From Bolinopsis microptera (lineage: Eukaryota > Ctenophora > Tentaculata > Lobata > Bolinopsidae), in contig NC_087080.1 in the NCBI RefSeq assembly GCF_026151205.1, forward strand, positions 443,812 to 507,811: a DNA stretch of 64,000 nt. The letters run 5' to 3'. Under the pieces are notes generated by a model. The model saw only the letters and a list, made by a program, of their open reading frames with translations. It had not been told where the DNA came from and did no database searches. The position numbers were made by a program, and so were the translations under genes. Each line of letters starts with the position of its first letter. Within the stretch, counting starts at the first letter, position 1. Shown here one piece after another: positions 4,296 through 40,777 of this stretch.

Positions 4296-4303
4296 GAACG
4301 GAG

Positions 4304-4485
4304 AGTGGAGCTGCTGAGTGTTCAGAGTGTGGAGGGGGGAGTGTTGCTGGGGAGGATGGGCTCGCTCAGTGCACTCAGTGTACTCCGGGTTATTACTCTG
4401 TGGAGAGGACTTTGTGTGCTCCTTGTGCTCCTGGCTCCTTTAACAATATTACCGGGGCCAGCCAGTGTCAACTGTGTGGTGTGGG
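4304..4485 (+). CDS. Exon 1 recovered: GCC2/GCC3 cysteine-rich repeat
   Basis: Reads SGAAECSECGGG..., then CTQCTPGYYS and CAPCAPGSFNN, the spaced cysteine and PG(Y/S)(Y/F) pattern of ephrin-receptor-like repeats. Donor G|GTGAGT at 4486, phase 2. The 5' border is uncertain because the acceptor sits at the edge of the degenerate array; AG at 4302-4303 is the best candidate. Further exons probably lie upstream of the window. Confidence 0.8.
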
Positions 4486-7400
4486 GTGAGTGAGGGTATA
4501 TTTTTTGACTGGTTCAAATTCTTTGATGGCCTTCAAATCAGTACGAAATAATAAAAAATTGGCCAAGGAATAAGAATTTTAGTGCCAAAAATGTGGACCC
4601 CCAAGTGGTATCAAAACTCGAATTAAAAAGGTAATAATTATTTTAGTCTCTGACTCTCTTGAGTCATGACACCACTTTAGGGTTAGAAAAGGGTTCCTGC
4701 TAGTAAAATTGTAAAACCCCTTCCTTTATCCCGGTATCCAACTAGTTAACATCACTTAATGTGTGTGTAGTGTGTGTTATGTAGCTTACGTTACTTAATC
4801 ATTTAATTTAACACCAGGTACGACGCCCCCCAGAACGCGAGTCTTGCTTGTGACATGTGTGAGCCAGGCGCCTTCTCCGACAACACCGGCACACCTGAGT
4901 GCAGTCTCTGTTCTCCGGGTCATGTTGTGGATATCTCCGGAGCTGAGGGATGTGATGCTTGTCCTCAGGGGTACGAACAGGTATTATAAGGGGTGTGATG
5001 CTTGTCCTCAGGGATACGAACAGGTATTATAAGGGGTGTGATGCTTGTACTCAGGGATACGAACAGGTATTATAAGGGGTGTGATGCTTGTCCTCAGGGA
5101 TACGAACAGGTAATATAAGGGGTGTGATGCTTGTCCTCAGGGATACGAACAGGTATTATAAGGGGTGTGATGCTTGTGCTCAGGGGTACGAACAGGTATT
5201 ATAAGGGGTGTGATGCTTGTCCTCAGGGATACGAACAGGTATTATAAGGGGTGTGATGCTTGTACTCAGGGGTACGAACAGGTATTATAAGGGGTGTGGT
5301 GCTTGTCCTCAGGGATACGAACAGGTATTATAAGGGGTGTGATGCTTGTCCTCAGGGATACGAACAGGTATTATAAGGGGTGTGATGCTTGTCCTCAGGG
5401 ATACGAACAGGTATTATAAGGGGTGTGATGCTTGTCCTCAGGGATACGAACAGGTATTATAAGGGGTGTGGTACTTGTCCTCAGGGATACGAACAGGTAT
5501 TATAAGGGGTGTGATGCTTGTCCTCAGGGATACGAACAGGTATTATAAGGGGTGTGATGCTTGTCCTCAGGGATACGAACAGGTATTATAAGGGGTGTGA
5601 TGCTTGTCCTCAGCGATACGAACAGGTATTATAAGGGGTGTGAAGCTTGTCCTCAGGGGTACAAACAGGTATTATAAGGGGTGTGATGCTTGTCCTCAGC
5701 GATACGAACAGGTATTATAAGGAGTGTGATGCTTGTCCTCAGGGATACGAACAGGTATTATAAGGAGTGTGATGCTTGTACTCAGGGATACGAACAGGTA
5801 TTATAAGGGGTGTGATGCTTGTCCTCAGGGATACGAACAGGTATTATAAGGGGTGTGATGCTTGTCCTCAGGGGTACGAACAGGTATTATAAGGGGTGTG
5901 GTGCTTGTCCTCAGGGGTACGAACAGGTATTATAAGGGGTGTAGTGCTTGTCCTCAGGGATACGAACAGGTATTATAAGGGGTGTGAAGCTTGTCCTCAG
6001 GGATACGAACAGGTATTATAAGGGGTGTGATGCTTGTCCTCAGGGATACGAACAGGTATTATAAGGGGTGTGATGCTTGTCCTCAGGGATATGAACAGGT
6101 ATTATAAGGGGTGTGATGCTTGTACTCAGGGATACGAACAGGTATTATAAGGGGTGTGATGCTTGTCCTCAGGGATACGAACAGGTATTATAAGGGGTGT
6201 GATGCTTGTCCTCAGGGATACGAACAGGTATTATAAGGGGTGTGAAGCTTGTCCTCAGGGATACGAACAGGTATTATAAGGGGTGTGATGCTTGTCCTCA
6301 GGGATACGAACAGGTATTATAAGGGGTGTGATGCTTGTCCTCAGGGATATGAACAGGTATTATAAGGGGTGTGATGCTTGTCCTCAGGGATACGAACAGG
6401 TATTATAAGGGGTGTGATGCTTGTCCTCAGGGATACGAACAGGTATTATAAGGGGTGTGATGCTTGTACTCAGGGATACGAACAGGTATTATAAGGGGTG
6501 TGGTGCTTGTTCTCAGGGATACGAACAGGTATTATAAGGGGTGTGATGCTTGTCCTCAGGGATACGAACAGGTATTATAAGGGGTGTGGTGCTTGTCCTC
6601 AGGGATACGAACAGGTATTATAAGGGGTGTGATGCTTGTCCTCAGGGATACGAACAGGTATTATAAGGGGTGTGATGCTTGTCCTCAGGGATATGAACAG
6701 GTATTATAAGGGGTGTGATGCTTGTCCTCAGGGATACGAACAGGTATTATAAGGGGTGTGATGCTTGTCCTCAGGGATACGAACAGGTATTATAAGGGGT
6801 GTGATGCTTGTACTCAGGGATACGAACAGGTATTATAAGGGGTGTGGTGCTTGTTCTCAGGGATACGAACAGGTATTATAAGGGGTGTGATGCTTGTCCT
6901 CAGGGATACGAACAGGTATTATAAGGGGTGTGGTGCTTGTCCTCAGGGATACGAACAGGTATTATAAGGGGTGTGATGCTTGTCCTCAGGGATACGAACA
7001 GGTATTATAAGGGGTGTGATGCTTGTCCTCAGGGATACGAACAGGTATTATAAGGGGTGTGATGCTTGTACTCAGGGGTACGAACAGGTATTATAAGGGG
7101 TGTGATGCTTGTCCTCAGGGATACGAACAGGTATTATAAGGGGTGTGATGCTTGTCCTCAGGGATACGAACAGGTAATATAAGGGGTGTGATGCTTGTAC
7201 TCAGGGATACGAACAGGTATTATAAGGGGTGTGATGCTTGTCCTCAGGGATACGAACAGGTAATATAAGGGGTGTGATGCTTGTCCTCAGGGATACGAAC
7301 AGGTATTATAAGGGGTGTGATGCTTGTCCTCAGGGGTACGAACAGGTATTATAAGGGGTGTGATGCTTGTCCTCAGGGATACGAACAGGTATTATAAGGG

Positions 7401-10400
7401 GTGTGGTGCTTGTCCTCAGGGATACGAACAGGTATTATAAGGGGTGTGGTGCTTGTCCTCAGGGATACGAACAGGTATTATAAGGGGTGTGATGCTTGTC
7501 CTCAGGGATACGAACAGGTAATATAAGGGGTGTGATGCTTGTCCTCAGGGGTACGAACAGGTATTATAAGGGGTGTGATACTTGTCCTCAGGGATACGAA
7601 CAGGTATTATAAGGGGTGTGATGCTTGTCCTCAGGGGTACGAACAGGTATTATAAGGGGTGTGATGCTTGTCCTCAGGGATACGAACAGGTATTATAAGG
7701 GGTGTGATGCTTGTCCTCAGGGATACGAACACGTATTATAAGGGGTGTGGTGCTTGTCCTCAGGGATACGAACACGTATTATAAGGGGTGTGATGCTTGT
7801 ACTCAGGGGTACGAACACGTATTATAAGGGGTGTGATGCTTGTCCTCAGGGGTACGAACAGGTATTATAAGGGGTGTGGTGCTTGTCCTCAGGGGTACGA
7901 ACAGGTATTATAAGGGGTGTGATGCTTGTCCTCAGGGATACGAACAGGTATTATAAGGGGTGTGATGCTTGTCCTCAGGGATACGAACACGTATTATAAG
8001 GGGTGTGATGCTTGTACTCAGGGGTACGAACACGTATTATAAGGGGTGTAATGCTTGTCCTCAGGGATACGAACAGGTATTATAATTGGTGTAATGCTTG
8101 TCCTCAGGGATACGAACAGGTATTATAAGGGGTGTGATGCTTGTCCTCAGGGATACGAACACGTATTATAAGGGGTGTGGTGCTTGTCCTCAGGGATACG
8201 AACACGTATTATAAGGGGTGTGATGCTTGTACTCAGGGGTACGAACACGTATTATAAGGGGTGTGATGCTTGTCCTCAGGGGTACGAACAGGTAATATAA
8301 GGGGTGTGATGCTTGTCCTCAGGGGTACGAACAGGTATTATAAGGGGTGTGATGCTTGTCCTCAGGGATACGAACAGGTATTATAAGGGGTGTGATGCTT
8401 GTCCTCAGGGATACGAACACGTATTATAAGGGGTGTGATGCTTGTACTCAGGGGTACGAACACGTATTATAAGGGGTGTAATGCTTGTCCTCAGGGATAC
8501 GAACAGGTATTATAATTGGTGTAATGCTTGTCCTCAGGGATACGAACAGGTATTATAAGGGGTGTGATGCTTGTACTCAGGGATACGAACACGTATTCTT
8601 AGTACTAACTACCAGTGTTTGTTAGACAGGAGGTCTATCGCTATATCCCAGCTATATAATATGATTTCAGCCTAAAGCAGGAGCGACCCAGTGTAAGATT
8701 TGCCCAGAGGGAACCTACACTGACTCAGAAGGAAGTGATAACTGTGTGTCCTGTCCGAGAGGAACGTACCAAAATAAGCAGGGTTAGTAACCTAGTAACC
8801 AGCTAGTTACCTAGTAACCAGCAAGTAACCAGCTAGTAACCAGCTAGTAACCAGCTAGTAACCAGCTAGTAAATGTGTGTCCTGCCCGAGTGGAACGTAC
8901 CAAAATAAGCAGGGTTTGTTTATGAAAAAGTAAAAAGAAGACCTGATTTAACCATAAAACGTTAGTTTATAAACTTGTATAACCACTGATTTATATCAGC
9001 GGTAACCATGGTAACTATATCAGGAGGTAACACCTGCTCTCCTTGTCCTGATGGGAAGACTACATCAGCTGAAGGAACGACCGGAATAGAAAAGTGTTAT
9101 TGTAAGTATTGAATGTAACCCCCCCCCCCTCCCCCTCCCCCAGTGTTATTGTTAGTATTGAATGAAGCACCCCCTCCCCCTTCCTTTTATGAGGGATTTT
9201 ATTAGACTCCAATTTTGCACAGCGAGAACTGTTTGTTTTTCAACTTAGTTAAAGTTTAGCTTAACTTTAAATTTTTATACATTTTTACAAAATAGTGTGA
9301 CCCCACTTTTGCAGGGGAGCAGTGTCCCATCGGTTACCATAGAAACTCGGATACTAATGATTGTGACGAGTGTTCTCAGGGAAGCTTTACAGACACTGTA
9401 GAGTCTCCTGAGTGTACGCCCTGTGCTATGGTGGGTAATACAACAACAACGTGTTACGCCACTGTAACACACCAGTGTTACGCCACTGTAACACACACAA
9501 CACACCAGTGTTACGCCACTGTAACACACACAACACACCAGTGTTACGCCACTGTAACACACAACACACCAGTGTTACGCCACTGTAACACACACAACAC
9601 ACCAGTGTTACGCCACTGTAACACACACAACACACCAGTGTTACGCCACTGTAACACACACAACACACCAGTGTTACGCCACTGTAACACACTCAACACA
9701 CCAGTGTTACGCCACTGTAACACACTCAACACACCAGTGTTACGCCACTGTAACACACACAACACACCAGTTTTACGCCACTGTAACACACACAACACAC
9801 CAGTGTTACACCACTGTAACACACTCAACACAGATTCACAGACACTCAACACAGATTTAAAAAGTTTTAAACTACATTTTGTATTGTTCAGATCTTCAGA
9901 TTAAATAATATTGTCTCCAGGGCTTCTTCAACCCGATCAGAAGACAAAGAAAGTGTCTTCAGTGCCCTGTAAAACACTGGACCAGATCTACTGGCTCCAT
10001 TCACCCCACCGACTGTATCGGTAAGTAACCTAGTAACCAGATAGTAACCTAGTAACCATATAGTAACCTAGTAACCAGATAGTAACCTAGTAACCAGATA
10101 GTAACCTAGTTACCAGATAGTAACCTAGTAACCAGATAGTAAACTAGTTACGAGATAGTAACCTAGTAACCAGATAGTAACCTAGTAACTTGATGATAAC
10201 CTGGTAACCAGATAGTAACCTAGTTACCATATAGTAACCTAGTAACTTGATAGTAACCTAGTTACGAGATATTAAACTAGTAACCAGCTAGGAACCTAGT
10301 AACCATATAGTAACCTAGTAACCAGATAGAAACCTATTAACCAGCTAGGAACCTAGTTACCAGATAGTAACCTAGTAATCAGATAGTAACCTATTAACCA

Positions 10401-13400
10401 GATAGTAACCTATTAACCAGATAGTAACCTAGTAACCAGCTAGGAACCAAGTAACCAGCTAGGAACCTAGTTACCAGATAGTAACCTAGTAACCAGATAG
10501 TAACCTATTAACCAGATAGTAACCTAGTAACCAGATAGTAACCTAGTAACCAGCTAGTAACCTAGTTACTAGATAGTAAGACCAAACCAACTATATTTAC
10601 CTCAATTCTCTAGTCTTTTCAGACGCAGAATCTTCTACACTCTCTGACTTCTTCTGATGTCTGGGACTTACGACCCCAGATGTAGCTTTCAACGACGTTT
10701 TAAGGGCCCAACGTTCAGCTGTTCATCAGGGTTAAACTGGGCAGGGTCTTTCAGCCAGCTGCCAGTTGTCACTCCAGGTCTTGTTGTAGCGACTAAGCCA
10801 GATAGTGTAGGAACCTTTCAGGGACACCACCGCTGTTGTGTTAAGTGCCCTCTTCTTCTTTGCCCGGGTGATGTTAAGGAAGTTGAAAATTCGGGGTAAT
10901 GTGTGGTGGTAGAATCCACGACATCCAACTTCTACTGTAAAGAGATATCCTTCCCAGCCTGCGGTCTCGATCTCCACCATTAGCTCTTCGTATCTCTTCT
11001 CTTTCCGGGATCTCTGGTCCTCAAAGTTCTCCTCGTTTCCACAGGTCAGCTCTATCAGGATGACTTTCCTGAGTGTGTTAGAGTATATTACCACATCAGG
11101 TCTGAGAGCTGTGTTGACAATATGTTGGGGGAATTGTCTTGTCCTTTCGTCCTCATCAAACACTAGTTTCCAGTCGTTACCTTCGTCTAGAAGATGAGGT
11201 TCTTCTGTAAGCCGTACTTCGGGTTTCCTGTAGGTTCCTTTTCCGGATACGAACTTCCTCCACTCTCTCTTTACTTCTGTCTTTGGGGTAGCACTGTTTA
11301 TCTCCCTCAGCTTCTCTGCAATTGGTTGCACGATTACCCTGAGCACCTGATCATGTCTCCAATTATACCTTCCTTGTTTAAGCGACACTGGGCAACACGT
11401 TAGAATGTGCTTTAGGTTGCACTGCTGACGCCCACAAAGGGGACAGTTGTTCGTGGAGCTGTAGTTCCAAAGCTGGAGGTTGCTAGGTGTACTTGCAACG
11501 TCGTGGATGGCATTTAGGTGGAACTTTGTCAGCTCGGGGCTCAAGGTATACAGCAGGCTTTGCCAGCCAGTGTCTAGCTGCATGGTGTTCTCCCAGGTTA
11601 GAAACTTTCCTTGGACTCTCTTATCGTAGAGAGTTTGAAGGAGCTCCTCTTCTTTCAGAGACTTAATTATCTCCACCAGTTGCTCCTTTTTGTTCTTCTT
11701 CCTCCTCTGATCACCGAATCCAATACCGGCTCCTTCCCTGGTCTGCACGTAGCCAATCAGTTCTTTGAAGTAGAGGTCTCTCTCCCTATTAGTCAGCTCC
11801 TTGGTGTAGTCCCATCTCTTCTTGTCTCTGTTGGTGTTTTCTCTGTACTCGAAAACCTCCCTCACTTTGGGGTCAACCGATGTCTTCAGCATATAGGCCT
11901 TGGACACCTGTAGACATTTGTACAGGTTGGAGATCTGCTTTAACGATAGTCCAAAGTGGTCTTTTGATCTGTACAGCACACTATTCGATATGGAAGTAGT
12001 AACTCCAAGCCATTTCTTCAAGTATCTGGTACAAAGAGCCTCTAGTGTCTGGATGAATGATACTGGGAGGTTGTATATCATAATATTCCACTGTACTTTG
12101 CTAGTTAGCATGTGGTTGTAGATCCAGCACTTGCTTGGTCCAGAGAGCTCCGCCATGTCTACTTTTTCCAGCTGGCCTGAAAGTTGAGTGGTGATTAGCT
12201 CTCTCGTCTCATCTTGGCCCAGGTTGACGTAAATCCAGTGACCAAGGAACTTTATCGGTGTGTCACCAAGGTACGCTACTTTCTCGTTTGCAATGATGAT
12301 CTCAGGGTCAAACGATCTGTAGGTATTGTCCACTACCTTCATTCCGAGAGCAATACACTTGCTGGGTTTAGCTCTCATCGTCCTTGTCCATGCTAAGAAT
12401 TCCTCCATTTGCCCGACCAGCCTCTTCATTTTGTCGAGTCTGTCAGACAGCAGGGTGAGATCATCTGCAAAAGCTCTGTTTGTAGTTGGCTCAGAGCTGA
12501 ACGACGGCTTGTATCCCAGTGTTCTGTCGACCTGAAGTAAATCCAAGAGTAGGTTGAATGCTATTAAGAATAGCACGACAGAAAGCGGGTCCCCTTGAAA
12601 CAACCCAATTAGGTAGTAGAACCACTCACTCTTCCACTTCTTCGTCTTCACCCGTACTACCAGTTCGTCGTAGTACTTGACAATATATTGGACCACTTCT
12701 TCTGGGAACTTGTAGTGCCGAAGCGCAAACACTATCAGCTCATGGGGTACTCTCCCATAAGCATTCATAAGATCCACCCATACTGCATACACCTGTCTTC
12801 TCTTACTCTTTGCATCCCGCAGTTCCTCCATGAGCGCTTGTGTGTGTTCTATGCATCCTGGCATCTTGCGCAGGAAGCCTTTTTGCACAGAGGTATCGAT
12901 GTACTTATTGGTGGTCATGTAGTCGAGCATTTTATCAGCTAGCATACCCATTGCCACTTTCCCACTGGTGTTAGTCATAGTGATGTTCCTAAACTTGCCA
13001 GGGTCACTAAGGTCCGTGGTCTTGGGAAGTAGGATGCTTTCTCCAATTCTCCACTGCAAGGGGACACTGTTTGATAACCAGAGTTTACTAATACACGCAT
13101 ACAATAGTTCTCTCAGCCTGGCACACCTTTTGTAAACTATGTATGGCACTCCGTTGGGCCCTGGTGAAGATACTTACTAGATAGTAACCTAGTAACCAGC
13201 TAATAACCTAGTAACCAGATAGTAACCTAGTAACCAGCTAGTAACTGTAACTCTATCAGGACCTATAATGACAATGTGTGATGGCACTAATATGACGGGT
13301 AACTGTACGACTTACTACGATGTAGAGCTATCAGTACCCTTCACCGCTCAGTCCCTTGAAGTAAAGGCCGGCAAGTTCAAGGTCTGTTCAGGCAAGAAAA

Positions 13401-16400
13401 TGTACCTGAAATGTGAGATGATCTCCTACCCGTTCAGGGCTGATGACGTCACTGATGACGTCACCAGACAGCTCTCTTTCAGTCCGCTCAGTTTAGAGTC
13501 TGACAGTGAGTTAACAGTGTTTAGTGTGTCTTGTTAAACTTATAATTATCAAAAAACATTGTTACATATTATGTCTGATTAAACATTGTTAAATATTATG
13601 TCTGATTGATATAAGAATATAATTTGGTATGAGAGAATCTTCTCCTTGATTTGATGATATCACATGTAAAATCCTTTACTTTAACAGTAACAAAGTCAGT
13701 GTAACTATAATAGTTACAAAGACAGTGTTACTATGGTAACTTTACCACTCCCCCTTTCTCCTCTCAGTTGACGACTCGTTCTGCTACGAAAACAGAGGAG
13801 AAGAGTTCGCTCCCACACGTTTCTACAACGCCACGGTCAACGGACACGGGTAAGTGGCTTTTTATAGCTGTGAGTTGATTCACGATGTCAATCCTTCGCA
13901 GCTCGGTGAGGCACAGTGGTGCATCTCGCCGATCTACCGAAGGTTGCGACTTGCGAGAAGCATTATTGGATGCGCGCGCGCGACCCAGTAGTGCATCGCG
14001 CTACAAAGCTGTGAGGGATCTCTCAGACACTTAATACTTTAGTTACTATAGCAATTATAATCCATGCTCTATAATACTCTTGTTGCTATAGCTACTATAA
14101 TCCATACTCTATGCTCTTGTTGCTATAGCTACTATAATCCATACTCTATAATACTCTTGTTGCTATAGTAATTATAATCCATACTCTATGCTCTAGTTGC
14201 TATAGCAACTATAATCCATACTCTATAATACTCTTGTTGCTATAGCAACTATAATCCATACTCTATGCTCTAGTTGCTATAGCAACTATAATCCATACTC
14301 TATAATACTCTTGTTGCTATAGCAATTATAATCCATATGCTCTATAATACTCTTGTTGCTATAGCAACTATAATCCATACTATATAATAATCTTGTTGCT
14401 ATAGCAACTATAATCCATACTCTATGCTTTAGTTGCTATAGCAATTATAATCCATACTCTATGCTCTAGTTGCTATAGCAACTATAATCCATACTCTATA
14501 ATACTCTTGTTGCTATAGCAATTATAATCCATACTCTATGCTCTAGTTGCTATAGCAACTATAATCCATACTCTATAATACTCTTGTTGCTATAGCAATT
14601 ATAATCCATGCTCTATAATACTCTTGTTGCTATAGCAACTATAATCCATACTATATAATACTCTTGTTGCTATAGCAACTATAATCCATACTCTATGCTT
14701 TAGTTGCTATAGCAATTATAATCCATACTCTATGCTCTAGTTGCTATAGCAACTATAATCCATACTATATAATACTCTTGTTGCTATAGCAACTATAATC
14801 CATACTCTATGCTCTAGTTGCTATAGCAATTATAATCCATACTCTATGCTCTAGTTGCTATAGCAACTATAATCCATACTCTATAATACTCTTGTTGCTA
14901 TAGCAATTATAATCCATACTCTATGCTCTAGTTGCTATAGCTACTATAATCCATACTCTATGCTCTAGTTGCTATAGCAATTATAATCCATACTCTATGC
15001 TCTAGTTGCTATAGCTACTATAATCCATACTCTATGCTCTAGTTGCTATAGCAACTATAACCCATACTCTATGCTCTAGTTGCTATAGCAACTATAACCC
15101 ATACTCTATACTCTAGTTGCTATAGCAACTATAATCCATACTCTATGCTCTAGTTGCTATAGCAACTATAATCCATACTCTATAATACTCTTGTTGCTAT
15201 AGCAATTATAATCCATACTCTATGCTTTAGTTGCTATAGCAATTATAACCCATACTCTATGCTCTAGTTGCTATAGCAACTATAACCCATACTCTATGGT
15301 CTAGTTGCTATAGCAACTATAACCCCATGTAATCTCACTTCCACTGCAGGTGTAAGAACTGGATATAGCAACTATAACCCCATGTAATCTCACTTCCACT
15401 GCAGGTGTAAGAACTGGATATAGCAACTATAACCCATGTAATCTCACTTCCACTGCAGGTGTAAGAACTGGATATAGCAACTATAACCCAATGTAATCTC
15501 ACTTCCACTGCAGGTGTAAGAACTGGATGGACACTCAGCACCCGGAAGCGGGAGATAACACGTACTGCGCTAATCCTGACCCTAAACAGAAGAACGAGCC
15601 GTGGTGCTACACCCACGACCCTGCCGTGGAATGGGAATACTGCTCTGTTCCTAAGTGTGGTCAGTAGTGTTACTATTATCTAATACTGTTCAGTTCCTAA
15701 GTGTGGTCAGTAGTGTTACTATTATCTAATACTGCTCTGTTCCTAAGTGTGGTCAGTTTTACTTTATATAGTCACTAATATTATCTAATACTGCTCTGTT
15801 CCTAAGTGTGGTCAGTAGTGTTACTATTATCTAACACTGTTCAGTTCCTAAGTGTGGTCAGTAGTGTTACTATTATCTAATACTGCTCTGTTCCTAAGTG
15901 TGGTCAGTTTTACTTTATATAGTCACTAATATTATCTAATACTGCTCTGTTCCTAAGTGTGGTCAGTAGTGTTACTATTATCTAATACTGCTCTGTTCCT
16001 AAGTGTGGTCAGTTTTACTTTATATAGTCACTAATATTATCTAATACTGCTCTGTTCCTAAGTGTGGTCAGTTTTACTTTATATAATAGTGTTACTATGG
16101 TTACATTACCTTATATGGTAGTTTGCAGACAATTAACCACCTTGATCCTCCCTCAGTATGGGACTTTGAGTGCTACACTGGTACCGGGTTTGAGTACAGG
16201 GGTACTCTAGCTCGCACGGAACAAGGCTACACTTGCCAGAACTGGCAGAGCGACTGGCCCCATCCTCATGTTAGTTTAATACTTTATTTGTTATTTGCTA
16301 AACTTTATTTAGGAGGAGAACTTAATACGAGACTAAGCGGCTCCTTCATAAAATAACGAAATGTTTATCTGCAGAGTTATCACCGTGGTAACGGGGCAGG

Positions 16401-17074
16401 AGACCATAACTACGGCAGAAACCCGGGTAACAACGAGCGAGCCCCGTGGTGCTTCACAACCAACCTTTTCAAAAGATGGGACTACGTTAACCCTGGACGA
16501 TGCAGTGAGTAATTTCATTATTAGTGCTCCATCTCCTTATATGGGCATCACGTAGGGAGAGCTTCATCTCCTTATATGGGCATCACGTGGGGAGAGCTTC
16601 ATCTCCTTATATGGGCATCACGGAGGGGGGGAGCTACTTTTAAAGCTAGTGTAGATTGGTAATGAACTAAGAACATTCATAAAGTTCTTCCCACTACTTC
16701 GTAGCAACTAGCAATTTATTGTATTTGAGATAATGTGAGGTTAATAGCGAGTTAATGGTGAGTGGGGGGGGGGGGGTGCAATTAACGGTGGATATTTTTG
16801 GCCCAATCTCCAGTTACTGAGCTTTTGTAGAACACGATCTAATTTTAACGTCATACAGCTCTCTAACAGCCTGCAGTCCGCGGTTGTGTAGCAATAGACT
16901 GACGGGTGCATTATAAAGCGTTATCTGGTATTAAACTATAGAAACTGGGTTATATTAGTGTTACTATACATCACTATGGTGACTGCATACATTACTATGG
17001 TAACTATATAATATGTGCTTATATATTATGTTGTTTTTTCAGGTCGTGACAAGTTCCCATTCTACAAAGAATAG
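4304..17074 (+). CDS. Cysteine-rich (GCC2/GCC3-like) and double-kringle extracellular protein, 3' part of gene, 12 exons
   Basis: I can join 4304-4485, 4818-4980, 8671-8782, 9024-9101, 9315-9430, 9921-10020, 13260-13505, 13768-13849, 15514-15659, 16157-16269, 16375-16504 and 17043-17074. All introns are GT-AG and every phase matches, giving about 500 residues and a TAG stop. In order, the protein has about five ephrin-receptor-like cysteine repeats (CxxCxPGxxS pattern), a roughly 80-residue domain of unclear type, kringle 1 (exons 8-9) and kringle 2 (exons 10-11), then a short tail. Kringle hallmarks such as PWCYT, WEYC and PWCFT are visible. Such modules belong to secreted or cell-surface proteins that bind other proteins. 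No transmembrane segment is seen, so the recovered part looks extracellular. The N-terminus and signal peptide are not in the recovered exons. The introns are almost entirely minisatellites, and intron 6 contains a retrotransposon. The assignment of domains is by pattern; the exact orthologue is unknown. Confidence 0.85.
4818..4980 (+). CDS. Exon 2: GCC2/GCC3 cysteine-rich repeat
   Basis: The acceptor 'acaccag' and donor CAG|GTATTA bound 163 bases. Phase 2 is received and phase 0 left. The translation contains CDMCEPGAFSDNTG and CSLCSPGHVVDISG, ending CDACPQGYEQ. The last 30 bases and the donor are the founder of the 43-bp array that fills the next intron. Confidence 0.9.
4950..8600 (+). repeat. 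43-bp minisatellite that repeats the exon 2/intron boundary ~84 times
   Basis: Each unit holds the last ~30 bases of exon 2 (codons for CDACPQGYEQ), the splice donor CAG|GTATTA and about 10 bases of intron. Variants include 'gggtac/ggatac', 'cctcag/actcag', 'gaacag/gaacac' and 'gtaatat'. In the exon frame the sequence past each donor is GTA TTA TAA, so failure to splice at the first donor ends translation at once. Because 43 is not a multiple of 3, later copies lie in rotating frames. Confidence 0.95.
8671..8782 (+). CDS. Exon 3: GCC2/GCC3 cysteine-rich repeat
   Basis: Acceptor 'atgatttcag', donor G|GTTAGT, 112 bases, phase 0 in and phase 1 out. Reads CKICPEGTYTDSEGSDNC then CPRGTYQNKQG, a clear CxxCPxGTY repeat. 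Confidence 0.9.
8783..8913 (+). repeat. Short ctagtaaccag array and duplicated exon 3 end
   Basis: About eight copies of an 11-bp (partly 19-bp) unit are followed at 8874-8913 by a second copy of the exon 3 terminus (CVSCPSGTYQNKQG, donor G|GTTTGT). The copy has no acceptor of its own, so it is probably not an exon. Confidence 0.75.
9024..9101 (+). CDS. Exon 4: cysteine-rich repeat segment
   Basis: Acceptor 'actatatcag', donor T|GTAAGT, 78 bases, phase 1 in and out. Reads GGNTCSPCPDGKTTSAEGTT, then EKCY. Downstream, 9118-9175, are two poly-C runs each next to a copy of 'cagtgttattgt(a/t)agtattgaatg', a further partial copy of this exon's 3' border. Confidence 0.88.
9315..9430 (+). CDS. Exon 5: GCC2/GCC3 cysteine-rich repeat
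   Basis: Acceptor 'acttttgcag', donor ATG|GTGGGT, 116 bases, phase 1 in, phase 0 out. Reads CPIGYHRNSDTNDCDECSQG, SFTDTVESPECTPCAM. The donor position is inferred from the phase of exon 6. Confidence 0.85.
9455..9835. repeat. 33-bp minisatellite (GTTACGCCACTGTAACACAC)
   Basis: About 12 copies of a 31-33 bp unit in intron 5. The unit is a multiple of three, so open frames of 88-158 codons appear on both strands; I take these as by-products. A related core (GTTACGCCACTGCAAC) recurs at 28150-28300. Confidence 0.9.
9921..10020 (+). CDS. Exon 6: end of cysteine-rich region
   Basis: Acceptor 'ttgtctccag', donor G|GTAAGT, 100 bases, phase 0 in, phase 1 out. Reads GFFNPIRRQRKCLQCPVKHW then TRSTGSIHPTDCI, completing the repeat begun in exon 5. 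Confidence 0.88.
10021..10565. repeat. 19-bp minisatellite (agtaacctagtaaccagat), left part
   Basis: About 29 copies in intron 6. The array resumes at 13188-13245 beyond the retrotransposon, so the element landed inside it. Confidence 0.92.
10566..13187 (-). mobile_element. 5'-truncated non-LTR retrotransposon (RLE class) inserted in intron 6
   Basis: The element spans about 10580-13173 and is flanked on both sides by TTACTAGATAGTAA (10566-10579 and 13174-13187). This variant of the host array is unusual ('ctagatag' rather than 'ccagatag'), so sharing it supports a 14-bp target duplication, although the repeat setting keeps some doubt. The 5' end is cut within the start of the reverse transcriptase domain (SSPGPNGVPY...). 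The 3' tail of about 150 bases after the stop has no poly-A. The orientation is antisense to the host gene. Confidence 0.85.
10732..13149 (-). CDS. Reverse transcriptase with C-terminal restriction-like endonuclease (R2/RLE-type), 5'-truncated
   Basis: This is an intact 805-codon frame, open to the truncated 5' end; the listed start is GTG, not a real initiator. RT motifs are complete. Motif A is VDLMNAYGRVP (Asp ~126), motif B is GLFQGDPLS (~182-190), and motif C is FADD (~227-230). A CCHC-type knuckle (CPLCGRQQCNLKHILTC, ~569-585) precedes a PD-(D/E)xK nuclease with RPDVVIYS (Asp ~685) and VILIELT (Glu ~700). This is the domain order of R2, R4, NeSL and related site-selective or RLE-bearing non-LTR elements, which prime reverse transcription from a nick made by the nuclease. 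The N-terminal DNA-binding zinc fingers of a full element are missing. No stop or frameshift over 800 codons suggests a young insertion. The exact clade is not assigned. Confidence 0.9.
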   Translation of the reverse strand: MPYIVYKRCARLRELLYACISKLWLSNSVPLQWRIGESILLPKTTDLSDPGKFRNITMTNTSGKVAMGMLADKMLDYMTTNKYIDTSVQKGFLRKMPGCIEHTQALMEELRDAKSKRRQVYAVWVDLMNAYGRVPHELIVFALRHYKFPEEVVQYIVKYYDELVVRVKTKKWKSEWFYYLIGLFQGDPLSVVLFLIAFNLLLDLLQVDRTLGYKPSFSSEPTTNRAFADDLTLLSDRLDKMKRLVGQMEEFLAWTRTMRAKPSKCIALGMKVVDNTYRSFDPEIIIANEKVAYLGDTPIKFLGHWIYVNLGQDETRELITTQLSGQLEKVDMAELSGPSKCWIYNHMLTSKVQWNIMIYNLPVSFIQTLEALCTRYLKKWLGVTTSISNSVLYRSKDHFGLSLKQISNLYKCLQVSKAYMLKTSVDPKVREVFEYRENTNRDKKRWDYTKELTNRERDLYFKELIGYVQTREGAGIGFGDQRRKKNKKEQLVEIIKSLKEEELLQTLYDKRVQGKFLTWENTMQLDTGWQSLLYTLSPELTKFHLNAIHDVASTPSNLQLWNYSSTNNCPLCGRQQCNLKHILTCCPVSLKQGRYNWRHDQVLRVIVQPIAEKLREINSATPKTEVKREWRKFVSGKGTYRKPEVRLTEEPHLLDEGNDWKLVFDEDERTRQFPQHIVNTALRPDVVIYSNTLRKVILIELTCGNEENFEDQRSRKEKRYEELMVEIETAGWEGYLFTVEVGCRGFYHHTLPRIFNFLNITRAKKKRALNTTAVVSLKGSYTIWLSRYNKTWSDNWQLAERPCPV
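13188..13245. repeat. 19-bp minisatellite, right remnant
   Basis: Three copies of the array found at 10021-10565, separated from it by the retrotransposon. Confidence 0.85.
13260..13505 (+). CDS. Exon 7: ~80-residue domain, possibly beta/gamma-crystallin-like
   Basis: Acceptor 'ctctatcag', donor A|GTGAGT, 246 bases, phase 1 in and out. The translation runs GPIMTMCDGTNMTGNC..., then SLEVKAGKFKVCSG and YLKCEM. The 'C-x5-G-x-C ... SLxVxxGxFxxC' spacing is faintly reminiscent of beta/gamma-crystallin-like folds, but I would not assign it. N-glycosylation sequons (NMT, NCT) fit an extracellular domain. Confidence 0.85.
13768..13849 (+). CDS. Exon 8: first half of kringle 1
   Basis: Acceptor 'ctcctctcag', donor GG|GTAAGT, 82 bases, phase 1 in, phase 2 out. 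Reads DDSFCYENRGEEFAPTRFYN then ATVNGHG; kringles begin with Cys-Tyr and a Gly, and are commonly split by one intron at this point. Confidence 0.9.
14041..15330. repeat. 31/39-bp minisatellite with GTTGCTATAGCAAC palindrome
   Basis: About 38 copies in intron 8. The unit is the perfect 14-bp palindrome GTTGCTATAGCAAC followed by 'tataatccatactctat', with or without 'aatactct'. Long and short units alternate in blocks, indicating higher-order duplication. Confidence 0.93.
15325..15513 (+). repeat. Three decoy copies of the exon 9 acceptor
   Basis: Units of 53-56 bp contain 'cacttccactgcag', the first 15 bases of exon 9 and a piece of the upstream X-box array. Splicing to a decoy would read TGT AAG AAC TGG ATA TAG, an immediate stop. 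The last copy runs into real exon 9. Confidence 0.9.
15514..15659 (+). CDS. Exon 9: second half of kringle 1
   Basis: Acceptor 'cttccactgcag', donor G|GTCAGT, 146 bases, phase 2 in, phase 1 out. Reads CKNWMDTQHPEAGDNTYCAN, then NEPWCYT and VEWEYCSVPKC, the canonical kringle end. The donor is weak; reading through gives CGQ and a TAG stop, so a shorter isoform ending after kringle 1 is conceivable. Confidence 0.92.
15660..16095 (+). repeat. Eight decoy copies of the exon 9 3' end and donor
   Basis: Units of 45 and 57 bp repeat 'ctctgttcctaagtgtg' (codons for CSVPKC) with the donor GTCAGT, followed by 'tagtgttactattatcta' or 'ttttactttatatag'. In the exon frame many copies read GGT CAG TAG, a stop. 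Confidence 0.92.
16157..16269 (+). CDS. Exon 10: first half of kringle 2
   Basis: Acceptor 'atcctccctcag', donor T|GTTAGT, 113 bases, phase 1 in, phase 0 out. Reads VWDFECYTGTGFEYRGTLAR, then CQNWQSDWPHPH, matching the CYxGxGxxYRGT and CQxW kringle signatures. Confidence 0.92.
16375..16504 (+). CDS. Exon 11: second half of kringle 2
   Basis: Acceptor 'tttatctgcag', donor A|GTGAGT, 130 bases, phase 0 in, phase 1 out. Reads HNYGRNPGNNERAPWCFTTN and RWDYVNPGRC. This corresponds to the NYCRNPDxxxxPWC block of kringles, with the usual first Cys of that block replaced by Gly. Confidence 0.92.
16515..16632. repeat. 37-bp tandem repeat, three copies
   Basis: The unit contains 'ctccttatatgggcatcacg'. 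Its core is shared with the much larger array at 23365-25610. Confidence 0.85.
17043..17074 (+). CDS. Exon 12: last coding exon of the kringle gene
   Basis: The acceptor 'gttttttcag' has a good pyrimidine tract. It joins in phase 1 and encodes SRDKFPFYKE followed by TAG. Confidence 0.85.
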
Positions 17075-18515: not shown

Positions 18516-19434
18516 TGATATGAGAACAATGTCGGCAGTGCTGCAAGACAAAGTGCTATGATAAGAATTAATCCCCTGCAAGCTCTACATGCCACGAGCC
18601 CACTAAGACGGCTACTGAAAGCTAATTAATCTAGCGGATAAGACTCTCTGGCCACGTGTTTAATGTTTTGCGATTAGAATGACACGTGTTTTACAACATA
18701 TCTAGTTTTGTGAGTGTGTGTTGTGTGGTGTTTTATGTGTTACACGTAGTAAGCAGGTTCCAGTTTGTTACTATGGTTACTATGGTTACTATGGTTACTA
18801 TGGTTACTATGGTTACTACAGGAAAATACCTGGATTACAGATCTGAACTGACAGAGTAAAGGTGTTACTAGTAATGACAAATATATTACATAATATTGTA
18901 TCTTTTCATTTATTGCAAGATATCTATCATGGTCTATCATGGTTACCATGGAAACTATCCAACTCGAATCTTCGCGTTTTCCTCCCATCTTTGCAATTAA
19001 TCACTTCTAACGTTTATAAATCTGGGTAAAATAATTTTGCTGAATATTCTTTCAACTCTTTTAATGTGAAATATGGTTTGCAAGACACTTGACAGTACTA
19101 TTTATTTGCAATACTCGCATGTTTAGTACGCATTTTTAGTGTAACTGCACTATACTCCTACTACTACTTTGTCTTGGGCGGCCTTGTTGTGCTCTATCTT
19201 TCTTGAGCATTTGTAGGTAGGATGGTAGTGTGGATGTGAGATGGTGGGCCGGTATATGTAGTGTAGTGCTGTCACCTAACTAGGACTGAGTGCAGTAGGG
19301 CGGTAGTGTGGAAGTAAGTATGTAAGTGTACACTATGTCTATACTACTATAGATGCAGATTATTCGTAAAATTGGGGTGAGGGTAAAAATATAAATAAAA
19401 TAAAGGAAAATAACAAAAATAGGCACTATCCGTC

Positions 19435-19880
19435 GCGGAGTCGAGTCCGCGGCGGAGCCGCCGGACTCCGAGCGGACTCCGAGCGGACTCCGGCGGAGCC
19501 GCCGGACTCCGAGCGGACTCCGGCGGTGCTCCGCCAAAATGTATTTACAGTGGACTCGAGTACATTTTGGCGGACTCCGAGCGGAGCCGAGCGGACTCCG
19601 AGCGGACTTTAAAGTCCGCCGCGGAATCCGAGCGGCTCCGCGGCGGCTCGGCGGAGTGTCCGCCGCGGACTAAGCCACTAGGCGGACTCCGGTCCGCCGC
19701 GGACTCCGGCGGAGTGCTTGGCGGACTCCGCCGGACCTCTCCGCCAGACTTGAATCCGGCGGAGTCCGGCGGAGCTTGGCGGACTCCGCCAGCTCGGCGG
19801 ACTCCGCTCGGAGTCCGCCGGACTCCAACAGAGTCCACTGACTTCCGACCTCCGTCTTCCGACCCTCGGCTAAATTTGTC
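19435..19880. repeat. GC-rich subterminal repeats (cggactccg/cggagtccg), left arm
   Basis: Dense copies of a short palindromic motif combining CGGACTCCG and GCGGAGTCCGC, far richer in GC than the rest of the window. The same block lies inverted at about 22035-22475. Subterminal repeats of this kind are typical transposase-binding regions of foldback and MITE-like elements. Confidence 0.85.
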
Positions 19881-22034
19881 ACGTGACATACAACATAGCA
19901 TTTTGCAATATTGTGGTCAGATGAAAAGGTCGCTAGTGATAAACTTTAACCATTACCCTCACAATGTCAATAGTGTACAACTCTAGTCCTAACTTTGACC
20001 CTATATTGTATAAACGTTGACCCTAACCCTCCACCAAACCGTCCGCAGCGAAATATCAATGTCATTGACTGGTCACGTGACCAACACAATTTTTGTCATA
20101 TTATCTCATATGGGGAAGCGTTTTTAGTTTTACATTTTACCCTACACGTTGCATGTGGCGTCATTCGGCCGGATCCCAGCAAGCAAAAATACGTTGACCA
20201 TCACAGGACGACGCCAGCCAGCACTCTCTACGCTCTTCGAGCTCCGATCGTCCTGTGACGAAGTAAGGACGAAGCCTGAGGTCCTCAGGTAACATCGACC
20301 ACCGATTGAAAATTCAAAGATTTTTTGACATAAAGGTCAAATGTAAAGCTAAAATCTTGATGCTGATTGATTGACGACGTCAATTTTTGAGCACAGCGCG
20401 AGCGCATGCGGAAAAGGACCGCGTAGCTAGTCAAGATGTTGATAAATATTTGGCTTGTGGCGCGATGTGTTGCTCTAACTCCCAGAAAACCTTACCGCCT
20501 GCTGGGCTTGCTAGAGGTGATAGATTTTCAACAGCACGTTTGGCGTCGCGCGTCACATCGAGTTTACCTTTCACACGCTGCATTTAGTTTAGTAGTCATG
20601 ACAACGACATGACTTTGCAAAGTTTAAAAGCTGCAATCTTCAATTTAGCCAAATATCAAACTTTTCGGTTTAATTCAGAATCTAAGTTGTCCCCAATTGT
20701 GCTCCTGGGGAGCCTCCTTTAAATTTACGAGACGGACATTTTGTTGAAAACCGGAAGGTTCTATCTATTTTACTTTTGGAGATATTGCCCGGCCGGTAGG
20801 GTTTGCTGGGCTATAGCCCTCTCGCTTGCAGTAGGGCGCGACCGCCGGAAATGACTTGTGGAACAAGCGCGCCCGCAGCGGCGCGAAAGCACCTGGTTAG
20901 CTAAATGAACGCGATGTGCCTTGCATTCTAGGATGAAATCCTACTAGCTGACGCCACTCGCAGCTGTGATGTTCGCTGTACGTCAGCGATCGAAATTTAT
21001 ACGCGTATCACCCGTTAAGATGTGCCACCCGACGCGCCACGCAATTTTTCTCGTTGCTCGTCGCACGTCGACGAACAACGAAGCTCGTTGCGACGCGCAA
21101 TGAGCTGCCAGGCTAGGACATCGTCCTGGTCCAAAAATTTAATGAGGGCGCCGACTTCCACTCTGGCTAGGTTTCTTCTGGCAAAATTTGTTGGACCAGG
21201 ACGATGTCCTAGCCTGGCAGCTCATTGCGCGGCGCGTCGCAACGAGCTTCGTTGTTCGTCGACGTGCGACGAGCAACGAGAAAAATTGTGTGGCGCGTCG
21301 AGTGGCACATCTTAACGGGGGATACGCGTATAAATTTCGATCGCTGACGTACAGCGAGCAGCACAGCTGCGAATGGCGTCAGCTAGTAGGATTTCATCCT
21401 ACAAGGCACATCGCGTTTACCTAGCTAACCAGGTCATTTCCGCCTCCGGCAGTCGCGCGCTACTGCAAGCGAGAGGGCTATAGTTAGAGCAACACATCGC
21501 GCCACAAGCCAAATATTTATCAACATCTTGACTAGCTACGCGGTCCTTTTCCGCATGCGCTCGCGCTGTGCTCAAAAATTGACGTCGTCAATCAATCAGC
21601 ATCAAGATTTTAGTTTTACATTTGACCTTTATGTCAAAAAATCTTTGAATTTTCAATCGGTGGTCGATGTTACCTGAGGACCTCAGGCTTCGTCCTTACT
21701 TCGTCACAGGACGATCGGAGCTCGAAGAGCGTAGAGAGTGCTGGCTGGCGTCGTCCTGTGATGGTCGACGTATTTTTGCTTGCTAAAAACGCTTCCCCAT
21801 ATGAGATAATATGACAAAAATTGTTTTGGTCACGTGACCAGTCAATGACATTGATATTTCGCTGCGGACGGTTTGGTGGAGGGTTAGGGTCAACGTTTAT
21901 ACATTATAGGGTCAAAGTTAGGACTAGAGTTGTACACTATTGACATTGTGAGGGTAATGGTTAAAGTTTGTCACTAGCGACCTTTTCATCTGACCACAAT
22001 ATTGCAAAATGCTATGTTGTATGTCACGTGACAA

Positions 22035-22475
22035 ATTTAGCCGAGGGTCGGAAGACGGAGGTCGGAAGTCAGTGGACTCTGTTGGAGTCCGGCGGACTCC
22101 GAGCGGAGTCCGCCGAGCTGGCGGAGTCCGCCAAGCTCCGCCGGACTCCGCCGGATTCAAGTCTGGCGGAGAGGTCCGGCGGAGTCCGCCAAGCACTCCG
22201 CCGGAGTCCGCGGCGGACCGGAGTCCACCTAGTGGCTTAGTCCGCGGCGGACACTCCGCCGAGCCGCCGCGGAGCCGCTCGGAGTCCGCGGCGGACTTTA
22301 AAGTCCGCTCGGAGTCCGCTCGGCTCCGCTCGGAGTCCGCCAAAATGTACTCGAGTCCACTGTAAATACATTTTGGCGGAGCACCGCCGGAGTCCGCTCG
22401 GAGTCCGGCGGCTCCGCCGGAGTCCGCTCGGAGTCCGCTCGGAGTCCGGCGGCTCCGCCGCGGACTCGACTCCGC
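22035..22475. repeat. GC-rich subterminal repeats, right arm
   Basis: Reverse-complement counterpart of 19435-19880. Open frames here (up to 236 codons on the minus strand) mirror those of the left arm and are not regarded as genes. Confidence 0.85.
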
Positions 22476-22496
22476 GACGGATAGTGCCCAAAAATA

Positions 22497-34483: not shown

Positions 34484-35603
34484 TGTAAGCAGTCATCACT
34501 TGCTTCAGATTCGTAGATTATTTGTAGTAATTTAGGTTACGAACAACAAAAACGAAAGTAATAATTATGGTAAAAAAGGGTAAGAAACAAAATGATTAAC
34601 AATCCAATTACCACAAAATACACTTCCTAATTACTCTGACTTATAACGCCCTACATCTACTGTAAAACACACGTCCTTACTCTACCCTTACTTATCACCC
34701 TCGTTAACCGTCTCTAACGGAGTCTTACCCTTAAACTACACTTACATAACACTGCACTTTTAGCCCTCGCTGACCGTCCTTATATCAGGCCCAAATCCAC
34801 TATAGTTCATTCTCGCTCTACCTGAGCCCGATTGTTGTTGACACGAACCCACTCGTGTTGGATTAACCCGTGTTAACCCTGGCTACAACACAGCCTATTC
34901 CTGCTCTCCTGAGTTAACCAATGTTGACTCTCCCAATGTTGACTCTCCCTACGACTCTCCCTATGCTCATTTCCTCCGCACAGTTCCACTAACTACAGTC
35001 CACGATAATGCTCTCTCCAGGATCCTAACGTAACAGGTCCTGGCTCCAAACTCCAAAGTGTCCTACATCAATGGCCCTCGATTCGGGCAAACTCAATCTC
35101 CTCTTCTGACCTTTCCACCGGACCTTATATAATGTCCTGTCCGTGGTTTTTCACCCGACCTCTCTAACCAGACTCACGTGCCCTTACTCACACCTTTGGC
35201 AGCTGGTCTTATCTCCCACTAAAGCTTCATTGTCCCGAGTCCAGGTGTTACGACTATTCATCTTTTTACCAAAGCTTCCTGTCTGATGACCTCTGAATCC
35301 ATAGTTTGTTAGAGCTCACATCTATCTTTGACTCTCTATCTACACAAAGGGTTTACGTCTGAGTTCTCCTAGAACCATTGTCTCTCCTCCAGAGTGACAT
35401 ATTTCTCGTCCGTCCAGGTGAGGTCCAACCCACAATCTCCATTGTATTCTCTTTCTCTAACTTTCCCTAACCACAGACCAGAACTGGATGTTCCACTTCC
35501 ACTGCCTTATTACACAATACTGCCTTATTACACAATACTGCCTTATTACACAATACTATCTAAAATCTATCAAATAATCTAGATCAAATAATCACGGCAT
35601 ACA
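34484..35603 (-). repeat. LTR (3' LTR if minus-oriented)
   Basis: Begins TGTAAGCAGTCATCAC and ends TCACGGCATACA. By eye it is indistinguishable from its partner at 39658-40777, with equal length and matching sequence at every segment compared. It contains a triple 'cttattacacaatactgc' repeat near its right end. Confidence 0.93.
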
Positions 35604-39657: not shown

Positions 39658-40777
39658 TGTAAGCAGTCATCACTTGCTTCAGATTCGTAGATTATTTGTA
39701 GTAATTTAGGTTACGAACAACAAAAACGAAAGTAATAATTATGGTAAAAAAGGGTAAGAAACAAAATGATTAACAATCCAATTACCACAAAATACACTTC
39801 CTAATTACTCTGACTTATAACGCCCTACATCTACTGTAAAACACACGTCCTTACTCTACCCTTACTTATCACCCTCGTTAACCGTCTCTAACGGAGTCTT
39901 ACCCTTAAACTACACTTACATAACACTGCACTTTTAGCCCTCGCTGACCGTCCTTATATCAGGCCCAAATCCACTATAGTTCATTCTCGCTCTACCTGAG
40001 CCCGATTGTTGTTGACACGAACCCACTCGTGTTGGATTAACCCGTGTTAACCCTGGCTACAACACAGCCTATTCCTGCTCTCCTGAGTTAACCAATGTTG
40101 ACTCTCCCAATGTTGACTCTCCCTACGACTCTCCCTATGCTCATTTCCTCCGCACAGTTCCACTAACTACAGTCCACGATAATGCTCTCTCCAGGATCCT
40201 AACGTAACAGGTCCTGGCTCCAAACTCCAAAGTGTCCTACATCAATGGCCCTCGATTCGGGCAAACTCAATCTCCTCTTCTGACCTTTCCACCGGACCTT
40301 ATATAATGTCCTGTCCGTGGTTTTTCACCCGACCTCTCTAACCAGACTCACGTGCCCTTACTCACACCTTTGGCAGCTGGTCTTATCTCCCACTAAAGCT
40401 TCATTGTCCCGAGTCCAGGTGTTACGACTATTCATCTTTTTACCAAAGCTTCCTGTCTGATGACCTCTGAATCCATAGTTTGTTAGAGCTCACATCTATC
40501 TTTGACTCTCTATCTACACAAAGGGTTTACGTCTGAGTTCTCCTAGAACCATTGTCTCTCCTCCAGAGTGACATATTTCTCGTCCGTCCAGGTGAGGTCC
40601 AACCCACAATCTCCATTGTATTCTCTTTCTCTAACTTTCCCTAACCACAGACCAGAACTGGATGTTCCACTTCCACTGCCTTATTACACAATACTGCCTT
40701 ATTACACAATACTGCCTTATTACACAATACTATCTAAAATCTATCAAATAATCTAGATCAAATAATCACGGCATACA
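39658..40777 (-). repeat. LTR (5' LTR if minus-oriented)
   Basis: Partner of 34484-35603, same 1,120-base length, TG...CA ends. Followed by target-duplication copy ATAG. Confidence 0.93.

Follow-up and report, generated by a model that had tools for sequence, protein, structure and literature searches.

The gene and its boundary array

In a 64,000-nucleotide stretch of the genome of the ctenophore Bolinopsis microptera (the window, meaning that whole stretch; positions 443,812 to 507,811 of contig NC_087080.1, called C9 below) we examined a gene on the forward strand, its exons lettered A to L, that encodes ephrin-receptor-like repeats and two Kringle stretches. Intron B of this gene is filled almost entirely by a minisatellite in which every unit copies the boundary between exon B and the intron, together with the splice donor. 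A sequence-only reading of the window had counted about 84 copies of this boundary, and had taken the repeated unit to be the end of exon 2 (exon B here) plus its donor. Both statements are borne out. The array consists of 84 consecutive units whose length of 43 bp is constant throughout, each made up of 33 nt of the upstream exon end and 10 nt of the intron start (with a slash for the splice junction, CAG/GTATTA in its common form) and each carrying one donor. The exon part reproduces, with few changes, the 3'-terminal 33 nt of the exon ending at position 4980, and the GT is preserved in 84/84 units. The extent first proposed (4950..8600) described a real array, the end of which is better set at 8592 by whole units, or at 8597 by Tandem Repeats Finder (TRF; 84.9 copies, 96% matches). 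Position 8593 begins a partial final copy, CAC/GTATTC.

The units are similar to one another without being uniform. There are 26 distinct sequences, 30 units are identical to the consensus, and a nine-unit run occurs twice as a block (units 31-39 are identical to units 39-47). All 11 units that end in CAC lie within the final 21. With the first donor counted in, the 84 donor contexts comprise 69 CAG/GTATTA, 5 CAG/GTAATA and 10 CAC/GTATTA, so that the 5' splice sites, initially described as equivalent, are nearly but not fully so. A probe across the edge of exon B (16 exon and 8 intron nt, at most 4 mismatches) finds 84 copies in intron B beyond the first donor, including the partial final one; the reversed probe and an exon-internal control probe find 0 copies in the same intron. 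A chance origin of the array is excluded. As the sequence-only reading also stated, a skipped donor closes the frame immediately: translation of the first unit in the frame of the exon yields ...GYEQ-V-L-stop, and a TAA is found in 84/84 units. The 78 nt on the 3' side of the array resemble a complete short intron, with a donor-like start, TACTAAC and an acceptor. As a whole, intron B is 3690 nt long in the window copy; in the paralog described below it is 1929 nt.

A paralog with its own array

An exact pattern search of the 264.65-Mb Bolinopsis microptera assembly returned 75 matches to the array unit, confined to the window array and to one place 102 kb upstream on C9. The paralog located there carries an array of 43 units, of which 41 enter the column counts below (two 42-bp units were dropped). 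Outside masked repeats, the two copies are 90-99% identical. Their arrays have variant columns 4, 17, 18, 26, 34 and 43 in common; the intron B array thus either predates the split of the paralogs or was mixed between them by conversion.

In both copies the 11 exons A-K can be joined through conserved GT and AG into a single open frame of 489 codons, and each of these exons is matched by family proteins (tblastn, eleven family proteins, E 1e-4). Pfam searches of the joined chain gave 126.4 bits for PF07699 and 81.2 bits for PF00051, both above the curated cut-off. The chain is constrained: by the Nei-Gojobori method, exons A-K show a synonymous divergence (dS) of 0.082 and a nonsynonymous divergence (dN) of 0.0078 (ratio 0.096), with 24 synonymous and 9 nonsynonymous differences between the copies (Fisher p 1.8e-10).

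The NCBI protein 'plasminogen-like [Bolinopsis microptera]' (P0001), whose first residue is a methionine within exon B, is identical to the joined chain of the paralog over 416/416 compared residues and takes 10 further residues from exon L; eight residues separate it from the window copy. Its B/C junction, GYEQ/PKAG, requires the first array donor, and NGHG-CKNWMDTQ requires the last of 64 acceptor copies at exon I. Identity with the spliced chain of the paralog places the splices of P0001 at the first donor out of 43 and at the last acceptor out of 64. This agrees with the earlier proposal that only the first donor yields protein, as do two relatives at the B/C junction, P0002 (55% identical; GYEQPKR) and P0003 (65%; GYEQPKK). 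In P0004 (55% identical) the residues at the junction differ (GTAQPEA) and there is no insertion; P0006 does not span the junction.

Further boundary arrays in the same gene

Twenty exon edges per copy were tested with 24-nt probes across the splice site, allowing at most 4 mismatches in the adjacent intron. Extra copies were found at 4/20 edges in each gene copy, namely (window and paralog, respectively) at donor B (84 and 43), donor C (1 and 1), donor I (8 and 16) and acceptor I (3 and 63). The remaining 16 edges in each copy have no extra copies in the adjacent intron, and no copies came from any of the reversed probes or of the exon-internal control probes (the latter for donors only). At exon D, one further copy of the donor and 8 exon nt lies some 50 nt downstream, a match too short for the probe and seen by eye. 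Farther upstream in the paralog, acceptors at C9:337569 and C9:339556 are accompanied by 10 and 29 extra copies, and an exon end at C9:344845 by one diverged copy within the intron (29/36 bases); these sites were picked through array-touching exon matches or by reading, and therefore stand outside the unbiased edge count. At exon I, use of an upstream acceptor copy, or reading past the donor, leads to an early stop.

Table 1. Exons and boundary arrays of the gene, in window coordinates.
Feature	Position	Strand	Evidence
Exon A, 5' end incomplete relative to paralog	4302..4485	+	98.99% identity to C9:346168-346366; open frame; tblastn match
Exon B, array source, donor CAG/GTATTA	4818..4980	+	Open frame; splice sites same in paralog; tblastn E 1.7e-20; GYEQ/PKAG in P0001
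84 x 43-bp donor-copy minisatellite	4981..8592	+	TRF, unit counts, edge probes
Remaining part of intron B, probable ancestral intron (~78 nt): CAC/GTATTC, TACTAAC, acceptor TTTCAG	8593..8670	+	Direct reading; paralog end similar
Exon C, ephrin-receptor-like domain	8671..8782	+	Pfam PF07699 E 1.5e-9; open chain; tblastn
One extra copy of exon C end and donor, within intron C	8874..8915	+	Paralog comparison, edge probe
Exon D	9024..9101	+	Open chain; tblastn
Exon E	9315..9430	+	Open chain; tblastn
Exon F	9921..10020	+	Open chain; tblastn
Exon G	13260..13505	+	Open chain; tblastn
Exon H	13768..13849	+	Open chain; tblastn
55-bp x 4 array, exon I acceptor and 14 exon nt, final unit = real acceptor	15309..15528	+	TRF, edge probe
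Exon I, Kringle	15514..15659	+	Pfam PF00051 at C9:459338-459469 = 15527-15658; open chain; tblastn
46/105/151-bp array, copies of exon I end and donor G/GTCAGT	15636..16085	+	TRF, edge probe
Exon J, Kringle first half	16157..16269	+	Open chain; Pfam; tblastn
Exon K, Kringle second half	16375..16504	+	Open chain; Pfam; tblastn
Exon L coding end, DKFPFYKE and stop	17048..17074	+	Peptide also ends P0001; in both copies

Relation to known boundary-spanning repeats

Repeats of this geometry have a precedent in amphioxus. The globin paper names boundary-spanning repeats 'mirages', citing Adh3, and describes mirages of 6 and 3 units in two haplotypes, with either boundary copied and regular splicing undisturbed (PMC3087553). 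A further paper adds PGBD5 and troponin C (PMC3902484). Like the amphioxus cases (Adh3, the globins BflGb6 and BflGb9, PGBD5 and troponin C), the ctenophore arrays are tandem repeats that span an exon/intron boundary, occur on either side of an intron, copying both 5' and 3' boundaries, and are unstable in length, as measured here between paralogs (84/43, 3/63 and 8/16). In amphioxus, regular splicing is reported despite the copied AG and GT signals; in Bolinopsis, the annotated protein of the paralog and the constrained open frames fit undisturbed splicing. The differences lie in the phylum, in the scale (84, 64 and 43 units here versus 3 and 6 in BflGb6), and in the occurrence at several boundaries of one gene, on both sides of one exon, and in two paralogs that can be compared.

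Other known systems are more distant. In human IFI6 (6-16/G1P3) a minisatellite at an exon end offers several splice donors (PMC4526556), and two downstream units are used as donors to give isoforms, whereas in the ctenophore gene the frame closes immediately and the annotated protein is spliced from the first donor. Repeats at exon-intron boundaries have also been discussed elsewhere (PMC2812944). As in intron gain through tandem duplication of an AGGT segment, a splice signal has been copied; unlike in that process, an existing intron grew and no new intron arose. We found no report of a ctenophore mirage in the literature searched, which leaves most subscription journals outside its coverage, and none of the terms searched for such arrays occurs in the genome paper on Bolinopsis (PMC10232365). 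The gene pair is a very large mirage case in a new phylum, and it extends mirage minisatellites, known in the literature searched only from amphioxus, to a distant group of animals. The amphioxus precedent, like the paralog and the further boundary arrays in the gene, goes beyond what the sequence-only reading had seen.

Proposed origin and choice of splice site

We consider it likely that the intron B array is a mirage-type minisatellite, a tolerated tandem duplication with the exon-adjacent site in use. A tandem duplication within an intron of about 78 nt would have fused position +10 of the intron with the upstream exon at 33 nt from its end, and each new unit would have brought a donor with it. 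The copy number may then have risen through unequal exchange and block duplication, so that the intron would have grown from its presumed original size to the lengths seen in the two paralogs. The far end of the array, where a divergent donor leads into a remainder of 78 nt that resembles an intron, fits a duplication in a short intron. The spliceosome would pick the exon-adjacent site, which is the first donor of exon B and the last acceptor in the mirror-image array of exon I, and the spare copies would all leave with the intron. Expansion would be tolerated because the exon-adjacent site is used. For the paralog, three lines of evidence agree with this rule, as simple use of a later donor would close the frame, the exon chain is constrained, and the annotated protein matches; for the window copy, the first two apply.

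A broader claim, to which we give slightly less than even credence, is that one gene contains arrays of up to 84 near-identical donors and up to 64 acceptors, and that in both only the exon-adjacent copy is used. Where splice sites are duplicated, the intron-proximal donor or the first AG might be expected to be chosen. Minigenes with two or three sites are the usual means of studying the choice among equal sites. Among competing donors of human DOK7, the intron-proximal and stronger site is favoured, and SRSF1 alters the choice (PMC5585400). Against these expectations, the ctenophore gene provides a genuine test in either direction. If RNA confirms the pattern, exon definition would override both the preference for an intron-proximal donor and the first-AG rule, in a lineage proposed to be sister to other animals and at a redundancy far above that of the usual minigenes. 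With dozens of donors and dozens of acceptors in one constrained gene, the array lengths of the paralogs would form a built-in dose series. The locus was fairly described earlier as a natural test of donor competition, and the idea is stronger than was then known, because donors and acceptors are both arrayed. The proposed origin would also provide a route from a tiny intron to one of kilobases with the protein unchanged.

Several points weigh against this account. Splice-site usage is read here from the genome sequence and annotated proteins; P0001 is a database annotation, and it is the protein of the paralog rather than of the window copy. P0003 begins one residue before GYEQ and so covers little of exon B. 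Gene conversion between the copies could mimic shared constraint. The window copy lacks the upstream exons of the paralog and may be a headless duplicate: its similarity to the paralog starts at 4301, within exon A, the paralog's exon A extends about 95 nt farther upstream, and the 14 kb upstream of the window copy hold no family exon in the same tblastn search. We regard it as unlikely that the window copy is a duplicate truncated at its 5' end and not transcribed, in which the array has no splicing role, given that GT and AG are intact at all junctions and that the 9 nonsynonymous changes compare with about 47 expected over 1157 sites had one lineage been neutral at half the dS of 0.082. The upstream region of the paralog is irregular as well, with an exon at C9:345441-345884 that changes frame near C9:345726, with a TGA, and the NCBI protein starting only in exon B. 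Given also the missing 5' part of the window copy, either copy may be incomplete as a gene.

Could the array have a function of its own?

The donor of exon B is weak, and the array multiplies this weakness. It has 6/11 consensus positions; in its common form, agreement with the U1-complementary consensus is confined to -3 to +3. It is the sole one of 11 donors in the gene without G at +5 (window donors A, E, G and K also score 5 or 6 but retain the +5 G). The array might aid splicing if its many weak donors, with a GGGG present at unit columns 10-13 (+10) in 80/84 units, recruited U1 and factors that bind G-runs to this donor. The GGGG is the one suggestive feature and could be an enhancer; the presumed start of the ancestral intron, GTATTCTTAGTAC, contains none, and both paralogs retain the array. 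We nevertheless hold this explanation to be improbable, because the donor columns are as variable as the others in the window (2/9 versus 12/34 variable columns; Fisher p 0.69) and in the paralog (2/9 versus 6/34; p 1.0), the G at -1 is lost in 10/84 donors, and exon I has a donor array at a site with 7/11 consensus positions and a +5 G. The two-fold difference in length between the paralogs also speaks against a tuned number. Neither copy thus shows selection on the array donor columns, as judged by column variability.

An alternatively spliced array is, in our judgement, a shade less probable still. In this scheme an acceptor-like CTCAG/G and a donor 12 nt apart would delimit a phase-0 microexon adding GYEQ, and, with an early stop after a skipped donor, decay of mis-spliced transcripts could tune the dose. 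CTCAG occurs in 84/84 units and TTGTCCTCAG in 68/84, and the read-through frame stops at once; P0001, P0002 and P0003, however, each contain a single GYEQ. The suggestion in the sequence-only reading that the array may serve as a U1 decoy, to which a telescripting role can be added, would draw on 74 CAG/GTA sites within one intron. A single gene pair cannot plausibly titrate an abundant small nuclear ribonucleoprotein. We rejected this candidate as very improbable: pairing of the common donor form with U1 is weak, the donor columns are unconstrained, and intron B of the window copy has neither AATAAA nor ATTAAA, leaving no polyadenylation signal to mask. Tolerated duplication remains our preferred account of the array.

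Repeat background and other loci

Tandem repeats make up about 44% of the window, compared with 1-39% in nine 3-kb samples of C9. Many of the repeat units in the window are built from motifs resembling GTTAC or GTAAC. By a rough estimate in which a 2.6-kb retroelement is counted as intron, 12% of 43-bp and 16% of 55-bp intronic seeds would touch an exon boundary by chance, and about 27% of 43-bp seeds if the retroelement is left out. In the window copy, 3 of about 10 array blocks touch a boundary, and enrichment over random seeding (about 12-27%) is not shown by this count. With chance seeding at one in eight to one in four and about three in ten observed, no splice-specific mechanism is needed.

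A scan of 50 loci for outside copies flagged 4/4 loci of the gene pair. Among the other 46, of which one (L025) may be the upstream part of the paralog and several share a gene, 39 have no outside copy; the seven others were flagged for other kinds of repeat, namely a 252-bp coding repeat (L042, L045, L050 and L053) and whole-exon copies (L057-L059). Most matches in these 46 loci lie inside long single-exon frames, which makes the scan a weak test. One myosin gene with nine exon matches (two of them copies of each other) has no boundary array; this count omits a tenth match, which contains stop codons, and a 48-bp x 2 repeat touching the start of that match reads non-coding. The same myosin gene has two adjacent exon copies for one stretch of the motor domain (C3:9154012-9154203 and 9154255-9154485), in an arrangement resembling mutually exclusive exons.

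Intron F contains, on the reverse strand at 10735-13173 and between two stretches of a 19-bp array, an open frame of 813 amino acids with a reverse transcriptase domain (PF00078, E 1.2e-18). This intron measures 387 nt in the paralog versus 3239 nt in the window, and the retroelement is therefore probably a recent insertion. A second insertion absent from the paralog, at 19422-22488, consists of nested inverted repeats with arms of 706 nt (99% complementary) and inner arms of 303 and 177 nt; its flanks in the paralog overlap by 8 bases, as expected from an 8-bp target duplication. Finally, a direct repeat (34842-35579 and 40016-40753, about 5.17 kb apart) contains the same short tandem repeats and three frames that are identical over the first 60 residues compared.

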